Notes: generated by a model not told the origin, from the letters alone. A DNA stretch of 64,000 bases from Candidatus Zixiibacteriota bacterium (GCA_040756055.1 JBFLZR010000002.1:336411-400410), one strand, 5' to 3'. Shown: positions 29,648 through 42,291, counted from the stretch's first letter. Program-made: numbers and translations.

Positions 29648-29691
29648 CCGTAACTTACGGTCTGCCAACCCTCTTTTCATATTTCCCCCGG

Positions 29692-29717
29692 CGCCCTATC
29701 CAAAAGGGGCGTTTTTT
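29692..29717 (+). terminator. Rho-independent terminator of the HesB-DUF2480-ferredoxin operon
   Basis: The stem CGCCC/GGGCG (29692-29696 with 29707-29711) is followed by six T residues. It separates the Fe-S operon from the pilin cluster starting 74 bases later. Confidence 0.75.
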
Positions 29718-29741
29718 GTTTTAGCCCAAAGACTTAAGGCC

Positions 29742-29790: not shown

Positions 29791-30549
29791 ATGCGCTACC
29801 GCAGGTTGATACACGGTTACGGGTACTCCCTGTTTGAGCTTCTGGCGGTAATCATCATAGTGGGGATTATCGCGACTGTCTCAATGAGGTCGATGAGAAA
29901 CACGGTTGATGTTTCCAAGGCGGAGGAGACCAAGCAGGAGATGAATCAACTGGCCTGGGCTATCTGCGGAAACCCGAATCTGGTGTCGGGCGGAGTACGG
30001 ACCGACTTTGGGTACGTGGGTGATATCGGGGCACTGCCGGCGTCGCTTGATAACCTGGTTACCAACCCGGGTTATGGCACCTGGGATGGACCGTATATTC
30101 GCGACGATTTTTACTCGTCGACCGGCGGCTCGGAATCCGAGTTTAAGTATGACGGTTGGGGAGCGGCTTATACTTACACCGGTGACAGCATCATATCCAC
30201 CGGCGGCGGGACGACACTGGCGCGAGAAATCGCCTACGCAACTTCGGACCTGCTCGCCAACACCGTCGAGGTGCTGGTAACGGATATAAACAACACGCCT
30301 CCGGGGGCAAGGCGTACGGATGTTTCGCTGGAGCTGATTTATCCCGATGGCGCGGGATCGACAACCACGACCGTTGCCAACCCGCGCGCCAACGGGTTGG
30401 CGTCTTTCAGTTCCATACCGATCGGGCATCACGACCTGATTGTCGTGTATGCCTATGATACGGTAAGCGACACGCTCTACCGTAAGGTAGTGGTGTATCC
30501 GGGCGAGTCATTTTATACAGAGATGGCCTTTGCGCAAAATTACTGGTAA
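29791..30549 (+). CDS. GspG-like prepilin with beta-domain, paralogue 1
   Basis: A 252-residue prepilin-like protein. A short basic leader ends at G11, followed by YSLFE with the +5 glutamate (E16) and a hydrophobic N-terminal helix (17-32), the signals for prepilin peptidase. Residues about 65-140 match GspG-type globular domains: GVRTDFGYVGDIGALPASLD, then TWDGPYIRDDF and the calcium-loop-like DGWGAAYTYT. Residues 155-252 form a beta domain with IPIGHHDLIVVY and DTLYRKVVVYPG that resembles carboxypeptidase regulatory-like folds. It is the first of five paralogues. GAGGT lies close to the ATG, after a terminator, so a promoter should sit in 29718-29790. Confidence 0.85.
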   Translation: MRYRRLIHGYGYSLFELLAVIIIVGIIATVSMRSMRNTVDVSKAEETKQEMNQLAWAICGNPNLVSGGVRTDFGYVGDIGALPASLDNLVTNPGYGTWDGPYIRDDFYSSTGGSESEFKYDGWGAAYTYTGDSIISTGGGTTLAREIAYATSDLLANTVEVLVTDINNTPPGARRTDVSLELIYPDGAGSTTTTVANPRANGLASFSSIPIGHHDLIVVYAYDTVSDTLYRKVVVYPGESFYTEMAFAQNYW

Positions 30550-30696
30550 GAGCTTTGATGGGATAACAGCAGGAGTGGCATCGATCGCTTATCGAAGCAG
30601 TATTAGGAGGCTGCCGGCGTGGGCTGGCCGGCGGGTAACAATAACGTGGAGCAATAACTGAGATGCAAAAAGCAGTGATGCATCAGGGGGTTATGT

Positions 30697-31875
30697 ATGG
30701 TGGGGCTGCGCGTGTTAAGTCGCGTCGGGGGCGATCGAGGCATTAGTTTAATTGAAGTAGTGGCATTGATTGTCATCGTCGCCATAGTGGCGGCGACAGC
30801 ACTTAAGTCGATGAGACCGGGTATGGAAAATGCCCGCAAAAGAAAAACCGAGCGCGAGATGGAAATGATCATGAAAGGCATTATCGGCGATCCTTCGGTG
30901 ATGTCCGTAGCCGGAGGCGTACGCTCCGACTTCGGGTACGTGGGCGACGTGGGCGCGTTCCCGCCCAATCTTGACGCGCTTGTTGAGAACCCCGGCGGCT
31001 ATACCACCTGGAACGGGCCTTATATCCCGTCTCAATATATGGACGGGTACAAAATCGACGAGTGGGGTCAAGAGTATATCTACGATGGTGCACTAAGCCT
31101 GACCACCGGCGGTTCGAGCAGTCAATTTCGCAGGCACGGCAGTCTGGACACAACCGACATTCTGCATAACACCTTGGCCGGGTTCGTAGTTGACGCCAAC
31201 GATAACCCGCCCGGATCCGATTATGCCGATTCTATCGAAGTGACGATAACGTATCCGAACGGCAGCGGCGGACTGGCCGCAAATACTGCCAACCCCGATT
31301 CCACCGGACACTTCAGTTTCAGCTCCATTGTCATGGGGCAACATCTCGTCGAAGCGGTCTACCTTCCGGAGGTTGATACGCTCGTGCGCTATGTAACCGT
31401 ACTGCCGAGGCATAATGAGGATGAACATATAAGGATGAATTTCGGTTCGGTGTATTTTGCTGAGGATACCTCGGGGGGCGGCGGCGAAGGTCATCTGACG
31501 CTGGTTGATGGAACTCCGCTGGCGAGTGGTACCGGTTGCCGGGATGTATCGTTCGACATTATCAACAATACCGGCAGTGATGTCACCGTTACCACCATTT
31601 ACGCGGCATGGAGCGGATCGGCGGCCTATTATGAGATAATTCGATGGAACTCCACTCAGGTGTTTTCGAGCGGCTCAACCAGAATCGGCACCGAGCAAAC
31701 GGTCGATATAAGCGATCAGACAATCGCCAACGGAGCGACAGCCACCGTGACGATCCAGGGATTTAAAGACCGCGCCACCGGTAGCGGCAATAGCGTAAAC
31801 ATGGGCGGAAAAGAATTTCAAATCGCGTTCTCCGACGGCTCCCAGGTGGAGTTTACGACGCCGAGTTGCCCGTAA
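30697..31875 (+). CDS. GspG-like prepilin with two extra domains, paralogue 2
   Basis: A 392-residue prepilin-like protein. The leader ends at G15, then ISLIE with E20 at +5 and a hydrophobic helix. The GspG-like core (GGVRSDFGYVGDVGAFPPNL, TWNGPYIPSQYM, DEWGQEYIYDG) spans about 70-140. The beta domain (about 160-250) contains the IVMGQHLVEAVY motif. A third domain of about 120 residues follows a Gly-rich linker (SGGGGEGH) and is bracketed by C281 and C391, which probably form a disulfide. AGGGGG lies six bases before the ATG. The 147-base gap from paralogue 1 contains a GCCGGC palindrome pair but no T-run, so it may be processed or hold a promoter. Confidence 0.85.
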   Translation: MVGLRVLSRVGGDRGISLIEVVALIVIVAIVAATALKSMRPGMENARKRKTEREMEMIMKGIIGDPSVMSVAGGVRSDFGYVGDVGAFPPNLDALVENPGGYTTWNGPYIPSQYMDGYKIDEWGQEYIYDGALSLTTGGSSSQFRRHGSLDTTDILHNTLAGFVVDANDNPPGSDYADSIEVTITYPNGSGGLAANTANPDSTGHFSFSSIVMGQHLVEAVYLPEVDTLVRYVTVLPRHNEDEHIRMNFGSVYFAEDTSGGGGEGHLTLVDGTPLASGTGCRDVSFDIINNTGSDVTVTTIYAAWSGSAAYYEIIRWNSTQVFSSGSTRIGTEQTVDISDQTIANGATATVTIQGFKDRATGSGNSVNMGGKEFQIAFSDGSQVEFTTPSCP

Positions 31876-31897
31876 CGATGGGAAGTGCTAAGCAGGT

Positions 31898-33094
31898 ATG
31901 AAACACAGGCTCCTTAACAGTAGATTCGTCGATGCGCGGGGCATGAGCCTTATTGAGGTGGTCATAATCATTGTCGTTATCGGCGTGCTGACATCGCTGG
32001 CGATGCAATCCATGACTGCCCTTATGGGGGATGCCAGAGCACGAGAAACCGAGCGCGAGATGGACCTTCTGGCAAAGGCCATCGCCGGGGATCCATCGAT
32101 CATGTGCGTCGCCGGCGGAGTACGTTCGAGTTTCGGCTACGTTGGCGATATTGGGGCGCTACCGGAAGATCTTGAAGATCTCGTGACCGATCCGGGATTG
32201 GGTACATGGAACGGACCTTACCTGATACCAAGTTTCAACCGCCAGCAGGATGATTTCAAGAAAGATGGTTGGGGAGTAGCATATGCTTATACCGGTGGGG
32301 TTACGATAACCTCCACCGGCTCCGGCGAAGATATCGTCAAGCGAATAGCTGACAGCGAAAACGACCTGCTGTTAAACCAGGTGGCCGGGGTTGTCAGAGA
32401 TTGCCTGGACTCGCTACCGACCGCCGATGACACCGGCGATGTTGATATCGTGGTGATCATCCCCAACGGCAGCGGTTCGACCGTTACGAAATATTACGAC
32501 ATCGACGTTGGCGGTGAATTCCTGCTGGATTCCATACCAATCGGCCGGCATCCGGTCAAAGCGATATATACGCCCGAAAGCGATACTTTGATGCGGTATG
32601 TGACCGTGATGCCCCGCAACAGTATTGGCGAGGCTGTGCCCTTCAATTTCGACTCGTCGTATTTCTCCACTTTGGATACTTCCGGCGGTTCAGAACCCAC
32701 CGGATTAACACTCGTTGCGGGTAGCCAAACCGTATACGGAGCGTCCCCGGGAGACTGCAACTATGTCAGCTTTGACGTGGAGAATCTGACCGGCTCTCCG
32801 GTTCAGGTGAATAGCATCACGGTTTCATATGCCGTGACGGCCTATTATCAGATATTGACATTCGAGGGCACTGAATATTTTGACAGCAATTCTCCCCGTA
32901 ACGGATCCGGCGCCACCGTTTCTTTCGGTTTACCTCAGACCATTCCCGTGAGTGGTTCGGCTACCGTCACGATTGAGAATTTTCGAAGCACCGCCACTGG
33001 GGTGGGTGTCAAGGTGGATATGTCGTTCTCGACTCTGAGCATAGAGTTTTCTGATGGCTCGGCCTTTGATGTGGAGTTTAGCGCCTGTGAATAG
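31898..33094 (+). CDS. GspG-like prepilin with two extra domains, paralogue 3
   Basis: A 398-residue protein with the same layout as paralogue 2. The leader ends at G15 before MSLIE (E20 at +5). The core carries GGVRSSFGYVGDIGALPEDL, TWNGPYLIPSF and KDGWGVAYAYTGG, the beta domain IPIGRHPVKAIY, then a third domain bracketed by C287 and the penultimate C397. Two additional cysteines (C70, C169) are unique to this member and might pair or bind other subunits. It begins 22 bases after paralogue 2 and overlaps the start of paralogue 4 by eight bases, so the three should be cotranscribed. Confidence 0.85.
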   Translation: MKHRLLNSRFVDARGMSLIEVVIIIVVIGVLTSLAMQSMTALMGDARARETEREMDLLAKAIAGDPSIMCVAGGVRSSFGYVGDIGALPEDLEDLVTDPGLGTWNGPYLIPSFNRQQDDFKKDGWGVAYAYTGGVTITSTGSGEDIVKRIADSENDLLLNQVAGVVRDCLDSLPTADDTGDVDIVVIIPNGSGSTVTKYYDIDVGGEFLLDSIPIGRHPVKAIYTPESDTLMRYVTVMPRNSIGEAVPFNFDSSYFSTLDTSGGSEPTGLTLVAGSQTVYGASPGDCNYVSFDVENLTGSPVQVNSITVSYAVTAYYQILTFEGTEYFDSNSPRNGSGATVSFGLPQTIPVSGSATVTIENFRSTATGVGVKVDMSFSTLSIEFSDGSAFDVEFSACE

Positions 33095-34265
33095 CTGTTT
33101 CCAACATCTTGCTGCCCGAAGGGGTATCACCATGATAGAAGTGGTGATGGTGATTGTGATCACGGCTATCATTTTGACTGTGGCTATGAGATCTGTCGTG
33201 ACGGTGACCGAGACCGGGCGGATCGAAGAAACCAAGCAGGAGATGGAACAACTGGCGATGGCGATTGTCGGCAATCCGGAACTCGAGAACAACGGCGTCC
33301 GCACGGACTTTGGTTATGTCGGTGACGTCGGCTCGCTCCCGGCCGGCCTCGATAGTCTATACAACCGACCTTCGGGATACACCACATGGAACGGCCCGTA
33401 TATTCAGCGACGGTTCGCGCAGATAACGAACGATTTCAAAGAAGATGCCTGGGGTGAGGCCTACACATACGCCGGCGGCGTGGATATTGTTTCATCCGGC
33501 TCGGGCTCAGACATCGTGCGCAAGCTGGCCAATGCTACCGATGACCTGGTATCCAATGAGGTGACCGGGATCATCCTGGACCGCAACGGAGCGCCGCCGG
33601 GACCCATAGAAGTCGATTCGGTGGAGCTCCATCTGGTTATACCCGACGGCACCGGCGGCACGACCACGCTGTCGATGCACCCGGAGGCATCGGGCTATTT
33701 CAGTTTCAGCGGCATTCCGATCGGCAATCACGATCTGGAAATTATCTACGAACCCTTGCACGATACGCTCAAGCGATTCGTTTCCGTGCTGCCCAATTCG
33801 GTGCTTTATCAGGAGTATTTCCTGACATTCAGTCCGTGGTCGGAGATTCCTCCCTCGGAAGACTGTTTCGAGTATATCGAGGGCAGTGCGTCGCTGATAA
33901 TGGGCAGTAGTGTATGTGACCGTATCGAGTTCGATATTATCAACAACTGCAGCGAGTATATTTCCATTACAAGCATCATGCTGGAGTGGGACAGTCCGGA
34001 GGCGTATTTCCAGAACGTTCAGTGGGACAACCAGGCCGCCTACAACCAGTCCACTAACGGCGTTGGCTCTGGCGAGGTAGCCGAATTTCAGGCACCAAAT
34101 GATACGAAATGGGCAGCGAGCGGGGAAACAATTACAGTCCACGTGGAGATCTTTAAGACCGGCAGACAACCGTCAAGCACCAGTGTTGACATGAGCAATG
34201 TTGATATTACCATAACGCTTTCGGACGGCACCACTTTCTCATTCAATACCGGCCCGTGCCTGTAG
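33087..34265 (+). CDS. GspG-like prepilin with two extra domains, paralogue 4
   Basis: A prepilin-like protein of 392 residues from the chosen GTG start at 33087. GGAG lies ten bases upstream and the leader is then 13 residues, similar to its neighbours, while an ATG at 33054 would lie deep in paralogue 3. Cleavage would follow the second-arginine RRG before ITMIE (+5 glutamate). The core has GVRTDFGYVGDVGSLPAGL, TWNGPYIQRRF and EDAWGEAYTYAGG, the beta domain IPIGNHDLEIIY. The third domain has several cysteines (SEDC, SSVC, NNCSE) and the penultimate cysteine seen in paralogues 2 and 3. Confidence 0.83.
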   Translation: MNSCFQHLAARRGITMIEVVMVIVITAIILTVAMRSVVTVTETGRIEETKQEMEQLAMAIVGNPELENNGVRTDFGYVGDVGSLPAGLDSLYNRPSGYTTWNGPYIQRRFAQITNDFKEDAWGEAYTYAGGVDIVSSGSGSDIVRKLANATDDLVSNEVTGIILDRNGAPPGPIEVDSVELHLVIPDGTGGTTTLSMHPEASGYFSFSGIPIGNHDLEIIYEPLHDTLKRFVSVLPNSVLYQEYFLTFSPWSEIPPSEDCFEYIEGSASLIMGSSVCDRIEFDIINNCSEYISITSIMLEWDSPEAYFQNVQWDNQAAYNQSTNGVGSGEVAEFQAPNDTKWAASGETITVHVEIFKTGRQPSSTSVDMSNVDITITLSDGTTFSFNTGPCL

Positions 34266-34273
34266 GAGTTCTA

Positions 34274-35008
34274 ATGAGAATTGTCACATCAAAAAGCGGT
34301 TTTACGCTGGTTGAGCTGGCGATTGTGATAGTGATTATCGGGATCATAGCGGCGGTAGCGACAAAGAACATGTCGAGCGCTATCGATACGGCCAAGTACG
34401 AGCACACCAAGAAGGAACTCGATCAGCTCGCGTATGCTATCGTGGGAAACCCCGATGTCTATGCCAACGGCACCAGGACGGATTTCGGCTATGTGGGGGA
34501 TGTGGGCGCGCTGCCGGCGAATCTCGATGCTCTTGTCAGCAACCCGGGTGGGCTGGCGACCTGGGACGGCCCCTATATGGGTAGCGGGCTCAATGCCGAC
34601 GATTTCAAAAAGGATGGTTGGGGAGTCGAATATGCTCTCACTGGCACGCAGATAACCTCGACCGGTTCCGGGTCGGACATAGACAAAGTGTTCGCGAGCA
34701 GCAGCGACGAATTGTTGTCGAACGCAGTGCGGGGGGTTGTGGTGGACGCGAACCACGATGTCCCCGGCGCTATCGATACAACATCGATTGTGATATCGCT
34801 GACATATCCGGACGGCGCGGGAAGCAGTACGACTGCCGAAACTTATCCGGGGCCGAGCGGCAATTTCGCTTTTACGGGAGTACCTATTGGAGCTCACCAG
34901 TTGCGGGTGGTCTACACCGCCCAGCACGATACAGCGACCTACAACATATCGGTCGAACCGAACACCACGGTCAAGCTGAGCATCACCTTTCCCGCCGACC
35001 TCTGGTAG
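34274..35008 (+). CDS. GspG-like prepilin with beta-domain, paralogue 5
   Basis: A 244-residue short form, like paralogue 1. The leader MRIVTSKSG ends before FTLVE (E14 at +5), the most canonical prepilin site of the five, and a strongly hydrophobic helix follows. The core has GTRTDFGYVGDVGALPANL, TWDGPYMGSG and KDGWGVEYALTG. The beta domain ends with VPIGAHQLRVVY and a short strand. It lacks the third, cysteine-bracketed domain. AGGAG lies five bases before the chosen ATG, eight bases after the paralogue 4 stop. It ends six bases from the convergent saccharopine dehydrogenase-like gene without a terminator that I can see. Confidence 0.87.
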   Translation: MRIVTSKSGFTLVELAIVIVIIGIIAAVATKNMSSAIDTAKYEHTKKELDQLAYAIVGNPDVYANGTRTDFGYVGDVGALPANLDALVSNPGGLATWDGPYMGSGLNADDFKKDGWGVEYALTGTQITSTGSGSDIDKVFASSSDELLSNAVRGVVVDANHDVPGAIDTTSIVISLTYPDGAGSSTTAETYPGPSGNFAFTGVPIGAHQLRVVYTAQHDTATYNISVEPNTTVKLSITFPADLW

Positions 35009-40651: not shown

Positions 40652-40800
40652 TCCCGAAGTTTGGGACAAAAAGAAAGGATGCATTCTTGGCTCGGTCATG
40701 GAAGACGGATGGGTGTTCGGCAGGACAATCCCGGTGTGTCTTTCAATTTCAAATAGTAACATTCAACTAACTTTAACACAACCCGGAAGGAGTGTTTCTT

Positions 40801-42291
40801 ATGTGCTCAAAGAGAATGCTTGTTGTGCTGCTGCTGCTCCTTGTCGCTGCATCGGGGTCTGCAGCGGACCTGAAGGGAAAGACCAGTGTGGGGGTCAGAT
40901 TCCCGGTTTTCATGCCGCTTTTCAACGGCGATAATTTCACCAGTTCAACCGGTTCCCGGCAGCCTTTCATGATGGGCTGGGACTTCGGCATCGAAGTCAA
41001 ACGCGGGTTTTCGGATCAGTGGATGCTCGGATTCACCGCGAATTATCTCACGACGTATGACGATACAACCAGCATAGACAATTCGGGCGATGAGCTTAAC
41101 AACAGTGACAATGCCACCGCCAAACTGACCGGCATGGTGTTTGGCGCGCAGGCGTATTGGTTCTACGAACCCGACTGGCGATTCCAACCATATCTTCTGG
41201 CCGGAGTGGGAGCTGATCTCTGGAAGGTCAAGGACGTTGTAACCGACGATTCGTACGGTTCAACCGATCTCAATGTCAAGATAGGAACCGGCCTTCTGTT
41301 TCCGGTGAACGAGAATTTCACCATCGACGCGCAGGTGAAGCTTACGCGCGATTTCGCCAATTTATCTGAAGACTTTCCGGCCGGATTCTACGGACCGGAT
41401 ACATGGGAAAAATACAGCGACCGGCCGTTTAAGGGATACCTTGAGGTGTCGGTCGGCCTCGCCTACTTGTTCGGCGGCGAGCCTGACACTGATGGCGACG
41501 GGGTGCCGGATAAGAAAGATCAGTGCCCCGGCACTCCCGAGGGCGTGACGGTGGACGCGTCAGGTTGTCCGATAGACACCGATGGCGACGGGGTAGCCGA
41601 TTATCTGGATAAGTGCCCCGACACTCCCAAGGCCGCGCCGGTAGACGCCCAGGGATGCCCGCTCGATAGCGATGGCGACGGCGTCTTTGATTATCTCGAT
41701 AACTGTCCGAACACTCCGAAGGGATGGAAGGTCGACGCCGCCGGATGCCCGTTCGACGACGACGGTGACGGTGTTGTCAACGAATCCGATAAGTGTCCGG
41801 ATACTCCCGATGGCGCCGAGGTAGATGCCAACGGCTGTCCGCTGGATTCCGATAAAGACGGCGTGCTGGACTATCTCGACAAATGCCCCGGTACTCCGGC
41901 TGGTATCGAGGTGGATGAGACCGGTTGTCCCAAGATCCTGAAGAAGGGCGAGAAGATAACGCTGCACATCAACTTCCCGTCCAACTCTTACGAGATTGAC
42001 GATGAGTCAAAGGTTATTCTCGACGGGGTCGCGCAGACTATGCAGTCGTTCCCGGAAATCAAGATTCGGGTAAGCGGCTTCACCGACAACACCGGCAGCG
42101 CCGGTCATAATCAGCAGTTGTCTGAAAACCGCGCTAAGGCCGTGGTTACATACCTTGAGAGCAAAGGCGTCGAAGGAAGTCGGATGTCATCGGTGGGTTA
42201 CGGCGAGACGCCGGAATATTTTGTCGGAGACAACACTACCGAGGAAGGCCGGGCGTTAAATCGCCGCGTCGAGCTTGAATCGGTTGAATAA
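40801..42291 (+). CDS. OmpA-family outer-membrane protein with thrombospondin type 3 repeats
   Basis: A 496-residue outer-membrane protein. The signal peptide (RMLVVLLLLLVAASGSAA) is followed by an eight-stranded barrel region to about residue 220. Next come five calcium-binding TSP3 repeats, each containing DxDGDGV and ending in xCP (roughly 225-380). The C terminus is an OmpA-like peptidoglycan-binding domain with VSGFTDNTGSAGHNQQLSENRA and GRALNRRVEL. AAGGAG lies eight bases before the chosen ATG. The protein would anchor the outer membrane to the wall. The repetitive DNA here (about 41480-41930) is coding, not CRISPR. Strong terminator follows. Confidence 0.93.
   Translation: MCSKRMLVVLLLLLVAASGSAADLKGKTSVGVRFPVFMPLFNGDNFTSSTGSRQPFMMGWDFGIEVKRGFSDQWMLGFTANYLTTYDDTTSIDNSGDELNNSDNATAKLTGMVFGAQAYWFYEPDWRFQPYLLAGVGADLWKVKDVVTDDSYGSTDLNVKIGTGLLFPVNENFTIDAQVKLTRDFANLSEDFPAGFYGPDTWEKYSDRPFKGYLEVSVGLAYLFGGEPDTDGDGVPDKKDQCPGTPEGVTVDASGCPIDTDGDGVADYLDKCPDTPKAAPVDAQGCPLDSDGDGVFDYLDNCPNTPKGWKVDAAGCPFDDDGDGVVNESDKCPDTPDGAEVDANGCPLDSDKDGVLDYLDKCPGTPAGIEVDETGCPKILKKGEKITLHINFPSNSYEIDDESKVILDGVAQTMQSFPEIKIRVSGFTDNTGSAGHNQQLSENRAKAVVTYLESKGVEGSRMSSVGYGETPEYFVGDNTTEEGRALNRRVELESVE

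Follow-up and report, generated by a model that had tools for sequence, protein, structure and literature searches.

The window analysed here is a stretch of 64,000 nucleotides from a Candidatus Zixiibacteriota genome (G000:C2:336411-400410), and positions of the array are counted within it. Five adjacent GspG-like open reading frames, which a preliminary description of this DNA had placed at 29791-35008, are all present there on the + strand. The genes, the modules that they encode and a hairpin preceding them are as follows.

29690-29722, + strand: terminator-like hairpin with a T-run, located after the ferredoxin gene and before gene 1, from a pattern match only
29791-30549, + strand: gene 1, carrier type A, 252 aa; 11-aa leader ending in Gly, core and module 2, without a third module
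30256-30546 (approximate), + strand: module 2 of gene 1, CarboxypepD_reg/CnaB-like beta-sandwich; placed by alignment, fold via homology to the gene 4 and gene 5 models
30697-31875, + strand: gene 2, carrier type B, 392 aa; T2SSG E 7e-4, CarboxypepD_reg E 0.017
31171-31455 (approximate), + strand: module 2 of gene 2, from the Pfam match
31456-31872, + strand: third module (M3) of gene 2, M3 profile E 1e-49
31898-33094, + strand: gene 3, carrier type B′, 398 aa, paralogue of gene 2
32366-32656 (approximate), + strand: module 2 of gene 3, from alignment of the five proteins
32657-33091, + strand: M3 of gene 3, M3 profile E 5e-47
33054-34265, + strand: gene 4, carrier type C, 403 aa; its 5′ end overlaps the 3′ end of gene 3
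33555-33836 (approximate), + strand: module 2 of gene 4, from Pfam, AlphaFold2 and Foldseek
33837-34262, + strand: M3 of gene 4, all-beta in the AlphaFold2 model, M3 profile E 5e-53
34256-35008, + strand: gene 5, carrier type D, 250 aa, start listed as GTG
34721-35005, + strand: module 2 of gene 5, from CarboxypepD_reg (E 2.7e-5), AlphaFold2 and Foldseek

Genes 1 and 2 are 147 bases apart, and genes 2-5 are close or overlapping; an alternative internal ATG in gene 5 would give a leader of 9 aa. On the 5′ side lie Fe-S genes, named from their translations as an Rrf2-like regulator, a HesB/IscA-like protein and a ferredoxin. The hairpin that separates gene 1 from the ferredoxin gene has a stem of 8 pairs followed by TTTTTGTTTT, which suggests that the array may be transcribed separately from the Fe-S genes. 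A saccharopine-dehydrogenase-like gene, also named from its translation, lies on the opposite strand at the 3′ side. Genes of a secretion or pilus machine were not found in the ORF list of the window across 22-44 kb, and the window gave no Rfam RNA match, riboswitches included. Downstream of the array region, 40792-42291 encodes an OmpA-like protein in which a thrombospondin type-3-like repeat (DxDxDGVxDxxDxCPxTP) occurs several times.

GspG-like cores and a grafted beta-sandwich

The products of genes 2-5 are 40-49% identical to that of gene 1. Since the five proteins align with each other over their full lengths and match family members elsewhere down to E 1e-154, their mutual similarity is, by these alignments, real homology and not chance. 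The preliminary description had claimed a prepilin peptidase site with Glu at +5 for each protein, and all five indeed have it (G^YSLFE, G^ISLIE, G^MSLIE, G^ITMIE and G^FTLVE in genes 1-5), with Gly at −1 and a hydrophobic helix, as in class III prepilins. The GVRxDFGYVGDxGALP and DxWGxxY blocks also recur in all five with minor variations. The C-terminal IPIGxHxL motif holds loosely for four of the five, but gene 2 reads IVMGQHLV. Loss of the prepilin site in most relatives had been raised as a possible objection, and the site is in fact retained: Glu5 was found in 206/206 family members by a strict parse in which Glu itself is part of the required motif, and a looser parse gave two divergent exceptions (L088 and L100), both outside the lineage of the window. 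In these two loci the last member of an operon-borne array is without Glu5 (GFSLVTI at L088:9139-9900 and GFSLIGV at L100:9170-10018), and in this it resembles GspK, the cap subunit of known tip complexes.

The proposed search against GspG and pilin profiles gave TIGR01710 matches for all five proteins (E 7e-9 to 3e-4, the best for gene 5), although all of them, at 20.6-35.8 bits, fall short of the equivalog cut-off of 88.85 bits. With the prepilin model TIGR02532, genes 1 and 5 scored above the cut-off and genes 3 and 4 below it, and gene 2 is absent among the matches listed. PF08334 (T2SSG) matched gene 4 above its cut-off (E 1.5e-5), followed by gene 2 (E 7e-4), gene 5 (E 5e-3) and gene 3 (E 0.28), with no match for gene 1. 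Thus the proteins share with GspG (TIGR01710/PF08334) the prepilin site, the long helix, the W-x-G-P-Y and D-x-W-G-x-x-Y head motifs and the profile matches. GspG has an acidic calcium-binding loop after DxWGxxY. The corresponding loops of genes 1-5 read STGGGTT, GGSSSQF, STGSGED, SSGSGSD and STGSGSD, with at most one or two acidic residues, so that a calcium-binding loop of GspG type is not seen in the five. Other differences from GspG are the 100-240 residues that the array proteins add and their occurrence as four to six tandem copies beside a separate GspG-like gene of the machine described below.

The preliminary description gave each protein one extra beta domain. A beta-sandwich of ~95 residues (module 2) is present in all five, following the class III prepilin site, the long helix and the GspG-like head, but genes 2, 3 and 4 add a second module of ~130 aa (M3). 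Pfam matches of the five proteins were to T2SSG and carboxypeptidase-regulatory-like families and were mostly sub-threshold; even the best module 2 match, PF13620 in gene 5, at E 2.7e-5, is under the curated cut-off. Structure prediction, which had been proposed as a check, was run for genes 4 and 5 with AlphaFold2 on the family alignment, and modelled the helix, the GspG-like head and the beta domains confidently, two beta domains in gene 4 (pLDDT 90.6, pTM 0.64) and one in gene 5 (pLDDT 93.3, pTM 0.82). Foldseek was run on whole models, whose matches are dominated by module 2, and grouped this module with CnaB/transthyretin-like sandwiches (E 4e-7 to 3e-5), among them BcpA (3kpt) and, with TM 0.63, a CnaB2 domain.

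The likeness of module 2 to the CnaB domains of sortase-assembled pilins such as BcpA is one of fold only. Those pilins are without a prepilin helix, and the array shows no sign of their Lys isopeptide bond, because the family alignments contain no invariant Lys; the array proteins were therefore rejected as isopeptide pilins. Module types that are not restricted to type IV filaments are present in the family, as the CnaB fold of module 2 and the Laminin_G_3 domains of relatives indicate. By their sequence plan, the array proteins are modular pilins.

Four inherited carriers with exchangeable modules

In trees of the cores (FastTree with 163 cores, IQ-TREE with 83), four clades match array position (A 99/94, B 100/99, C 80/86, D 88/58). 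Nearly all genomes of the order carry these four orthologous carriers, most complete arrays read A-B-C-D, and the window reads A-B-B′-C-D. A recent five-fold tandem expansion is thus ruled out in favour of four types that are order-wide and one duplicate of B, since B alone is duplicated in the genus of the window. Searching related genomes for the same block recovered the array in almost the whole order, but as four carriers; the fifth, B′, was found only in the genus of the window, and B occurs three times in a sister genome (L038). A comparison of conservation among the carriers singled out no major subunit.

The family was matched in 60/60 sampled relatives, strongly in 59 of them, and 28 fetched loci share the ferredoxin and/or saccharopine-dehydrogenase-like neighbour of the window. 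In the phylum, 106 of 132 genomes gave a strong match, for which a threshold of E below 1e-60 was chosen. A scan of 84,980 GTDB species with two short peptide patterns, of which the best 80 loci were kept, returned loci mostly labelled Candidatus Zixiibacteriota. Within the reach of this two-pattern scan and its best 80 loci, the family is confined to Zixibacteria. Three loci labelled Calditrichota/Calditrichaeota or Ignavibacterium (L050, L055 and L086) were considered as a spread beyond the phylum and rejected; these labels look like older naming, because the machine matches of the loci are identical to those of G084, G042 and G018 of the phylum of the window, which are taken to be the same genomes. 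Array genes broken or fused by N runs in single-contig MAGs (L039:10016-11929, L040:11222-12055 and L126:12849-13451), for example a 637-aa 'B' member falsely fused across an N run, were set aside as assembly artefacts.

Third modules differ among carriers. M3 matched no Pfam family and nothing significant among PDB sequences, and in a profile search of 21 genomes it was restricted to this pilin family. A second type, M4, also has no Pfam match; it matches the C-terminal ~130 residues of the phage families phrog_6368 and phrog_2448, to which no function is assigned, and carriers with such an M4 include L043:3292-4563, L077:6702-7946 and L063:2388-4358. By profile matching, then, M4 is one domain used on both phage proteins and pilins. 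The third type, a Laminin_G_3 lectin (PF13385), is above cut-off in relatives (E 1e-17 to 7e-32) and sometimes occurs with DUF2341. Modules were counted in fetched loci with profiles built in this analysis, identical sequences being removed and close relatives kept at full weight. Carrier A has no third module in 34 cases, M4 in 7, M3 in 2 and another in 2. Carrier B bears M4 in 25, M3 in 19, a lectin in 4, none in 4 and another in 4. Carrier C, whose counts include operon-borne members, bears M3 in 45, none in 10, a lectin in 5, M4 in 3 and another in 1. Carrier D is bare in 44/44, with a uniform length of 233-236 residues (mature plus Gly).

In three loci (L041, L046 and L057), M3 copies from carriers A, B and C cluster together and not by carrier, which indicates that M3 has been copied from one carrier to another. 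Judged from these groupings and counts, module type is independent of carrier and modules move among carriers. Ahead of the end module, about four repeats of ~50 residues (ISTxxxATIGxxSFxxEDIVEYDP) were observed in L070:10013-11956, L076:5864-7975 and L063:2388-4358, and these units possibly form a propeller-like domain.

Grafting of domains onto pilins has been described before (PMC8179133, PMC9934059). Modular pilins are widespread, and PF13620 and PF13385 belong to the domains that are most commonly grafted (PMC8179133, the PilB paper), and Streptococcus sanguinis PilC consists of a pilin part, an Ig-like domain and a ConA-like lectin and belongs to a minor-pilin tip complex (PMC9934059). 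Our array most closely resembles the S. sanguinis tip complex of PilA, PilB and PilC (PMC8179133, PMC9934059) in the class III site with Glu5, in the small pilin part followed by grafted modules, in the encoding of several such proteins together and in the types of graft, which include lectins, PF13620 and PF13385. Unlike these, it has a GspG-like pilin part, keeps four carriers across an order of uncultured diderms, exchanges modules between carriers, includes modules without a Pfam match (M3 and M4) and is linked to a T2SS/T4P hybrid machine. The modules are probably binding domains. For the M3 modules of the window itself we infer binding by likeness to PilB and PilC; this role is analogical because M3 has no recognised relatives and is restricted to the family within 21 genomes.

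The hybrid machine and the position of the carriers

In deeper branches, one to three family members lie inside a T2SS/T4P-hybrid operon with the order GspE-GspF-pilin-GspG-like-[members]-PilM/PilN-M-like-C-like-secretin, and in 17 fetched loci a family member directly adjoins the PilM-like gene. The operon encodes two pilins, one of ~138 aa and a GspG-like one of ~150 aa, together with GspF and a GspE-like ATPase, which has an MshEN domain and also matches a c-di-GMP-binding motif model. Its remaining products are a PilM protein whose end is PilN-like, a protein of ~186 aa that matched nothing, a GspC/B-like protein and a secretin. In the genome of the window this operon lies on another contig, C5 (L110:6035-13892), without family members, and the link between array and machine rests on relatives because here the array is not beside the machine. 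The preliminary description rightly contrasted the array with ordinary operons, which have one GspG, but the contrast was incomplete, as the machine has its own GspG-like pilin and the five are additional.

The C5 operon has strong matches to the T2SS core families PF00437, PF00482 and PF00263, and its second pilin matches TIGR01710 at E 1e-10, below cut-off. As counterparts of L, M and C, one protein combines PilM_2 with a weak PilN match, the next matches nothing, and the GspC/GspB-like protein is a near-miss (PF11356, 26.9 bits, cut-off 27). The ATPase scores 594 bits with PilB and 576 with GspE, and the secretin 217 with PilQ and 196 with GspD, none above its cut-off. The operon contains neither PilT nor separate PilMNOPQ genes and in this differs from a T4aP locus. 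It has two pilins only, with no H-I-J-K genes, and GspK (PF03934) was absent from the search results of the genome, in which controls worked.

Family and machine also occur together. When a profile of the PilM-like machine protein was searched against the same 132 genomes (threshold ~1e-21), 99 genomes had both, 7 the family only, 1 the machine only and 25 neither; after direct reading of the exceptions, these numbers became 103, 3, 0 and 26. Family without machine was rejected for G123, G124, G126 and G128, where a divergent machine lies beside the family, and machine without family for G120, which has only an ordinary T4P PilM/PilN pair. The three family-only genomes (G008, G083 and G087) are drafts, 78-87% complete. 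Fisher's test gives p 1.5e-24, a value that overstates the evidence because it ignores shared ancestry; hence adjacency across many families is the stronger argument. The array very probably belongs to a machine of the C5 type. Single-member branches (L055, L099, L107, L120, L121 and L123) carry an operon-borne member with M3, so that the ancestral state was likely a single M3-bearing member, and the likely path leads from one operon-borne member through duplication to four and then relocation away from the machine.

The same genome has a separate canonical T4aP set, with PilB/PilT on C9, PilMNOPQ on C3, PilA-like pilins on C2, PilV/PilW/PilX-like proteins on C1 and C4 and a further part on C6; its own minor pilins are PilV/PilW/PilX-like and FimT/GspH-like. 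The PilV/PilW/PilX-like proteins form two separate sets (L112:4810-9821 on C4 and L114:6152-9484 on C1), a tested PilX-like protein from these sets has a DUF7305 domain, and L112 also encodes secreted proteins with dockerin-like DPLDLTYLV.. tails. Another T2SS/T4P-like locus (L113, G000:C7:30000-49000) comprises an ATPase, GspF, a secretin, a PilM-like protein and pilins, with an RHS-repeat-like protein alongside.

Tips of type IV filaments normally consist of the four minor pilins H-I-J-K (PMC10191384). Like these, carriers A-D are a conserved set of four prepilins for one machine and ancestrally lie beside machine genes; unlike them, they derive from the GspG side, are not recognisable as H/I/J/K homologues, bear added modules and, in the window, all have Glu5. 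According to our model, to which we give a probability of roughly 0.5, A-D are modular (pseudo)pilins of the C5-type machine and most likely form a tip complex presenting binding modules. Each prepilin would be cut after Gly by the only prepilin peptidase detected in the genome, and the Glu5-bearing helix would be inserted into a filament that the GspE-like ATPase and GspF assemble. Carriers A, B, C and D would then form a hetero-oligomeric tip complex in place of H-I-J-K, with the always-bare D as a structural partner, and the C-terminal modules (M3, M4 and the Laminin_G_3 lectin) would be presented to surfaces, glycans or exported proteins. The machine operon without H-I-J-K, and a genome in which GspK was not found, support a tip complex. 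However, cores that are GspG-like and not H/I/J/K-like could equally be shaft subunits, and all carriers of the window keep Glu5, whereas the cap subunit of known complexes is without it (PMC10191384). Between a position at the tip and one along the shaft, the odds are about even.

The machine could instead be a T2SS-like secretion machine without a surface filament, in which A-D are substrate-recognising pseudopilins whose modules choose folded cargo in the periplasm and drive it through the secretin. The PilM protein with a PilN-like end, the GspC/GspB-like protein and the secretin resemble GspL, GspC and GspD, PilT is missing from the operon, and in T2SS the HIJK tip makes contact with cargo (review PMC10191384). 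Nevertheless, the ATPase is nearer to PilB than to GspE and the secretin nearer to PilQ than to GspD, although all these scores are below cut-off, and the swappable lectin modules have the look of ligand binders that face outwards; we consider both the recognition and the export of cargo in this manner rather unlikely. Still less probable is a heteropolymeric shaft of which A-D are co-major subunits, with beta-sandwich modules along its whole length. Such a shaft would fit the GspG-like, major-pseudopilin-like cores with Glu5 kept and the uniform length of D, and T4P that are heteropolymers of two major pilins are known (PMC10628169), but two small pilins that would suit the shaft are already encoded in the operon, modules as long as several hundred residues (L076 and L063) would be hard to pack along it, and modular pilins are thought likely to be exposed at the tip (PMC8179133). 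Assembly of the array by the T4aP (C9 and C3) as accessory minor pilins, with the operon link merely ancestral, would suit the unlinked array and C5 operon of this genome, its T4aP components and its one prepilin peptidase for all, but is very improbable given that the T4aP already has minor pilins of its own and that the 26 phylum genomes without the family are also without the C5-type machine, though many of them match T4P-type PilM.

The preliminary description envisaged a heteropolymeric fibre or tip of GspG-like prepilins with grafted beta domains. The prepilin sites and the domain plan make this plausible, but not as an undescribed and self-contained system, since relatives tie the array to a recognisable T2SS/T4P-type operon and domain grafting was already known. 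A fixed four-carrier set with exchangeable modules, conserved phylum-wide and relocated from a hybrid operon, was not found described in the open-access papers searched, where nothing useful on Zixibacteria pili was found either; the absence is weak evidence because the search was limited to open-access papers. More tentatively, and less likely than not, the arrays may represent a class of type IV filament in which four GspG-derived carriers replace H-I-J-K as a dedicated tip complex and serve as a modular display, with modules swapped between carriers and gained from elsewhere.

Modular pilins have so far been studied singly, and the arrays offer a natural series of the same four carriers with different modules. 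With this series one can ask which of the carriers accept cargo, D being one that never does, and by what means a filament tip changes its target. Zixibacteria genes that would otherwise stand as anonymous 'prepilin-type' proteins also receive a function that can be tested. If the arrays are indeed modular displays, a whole phylum would retarget one machine, with the carriers fixed by inheritance.
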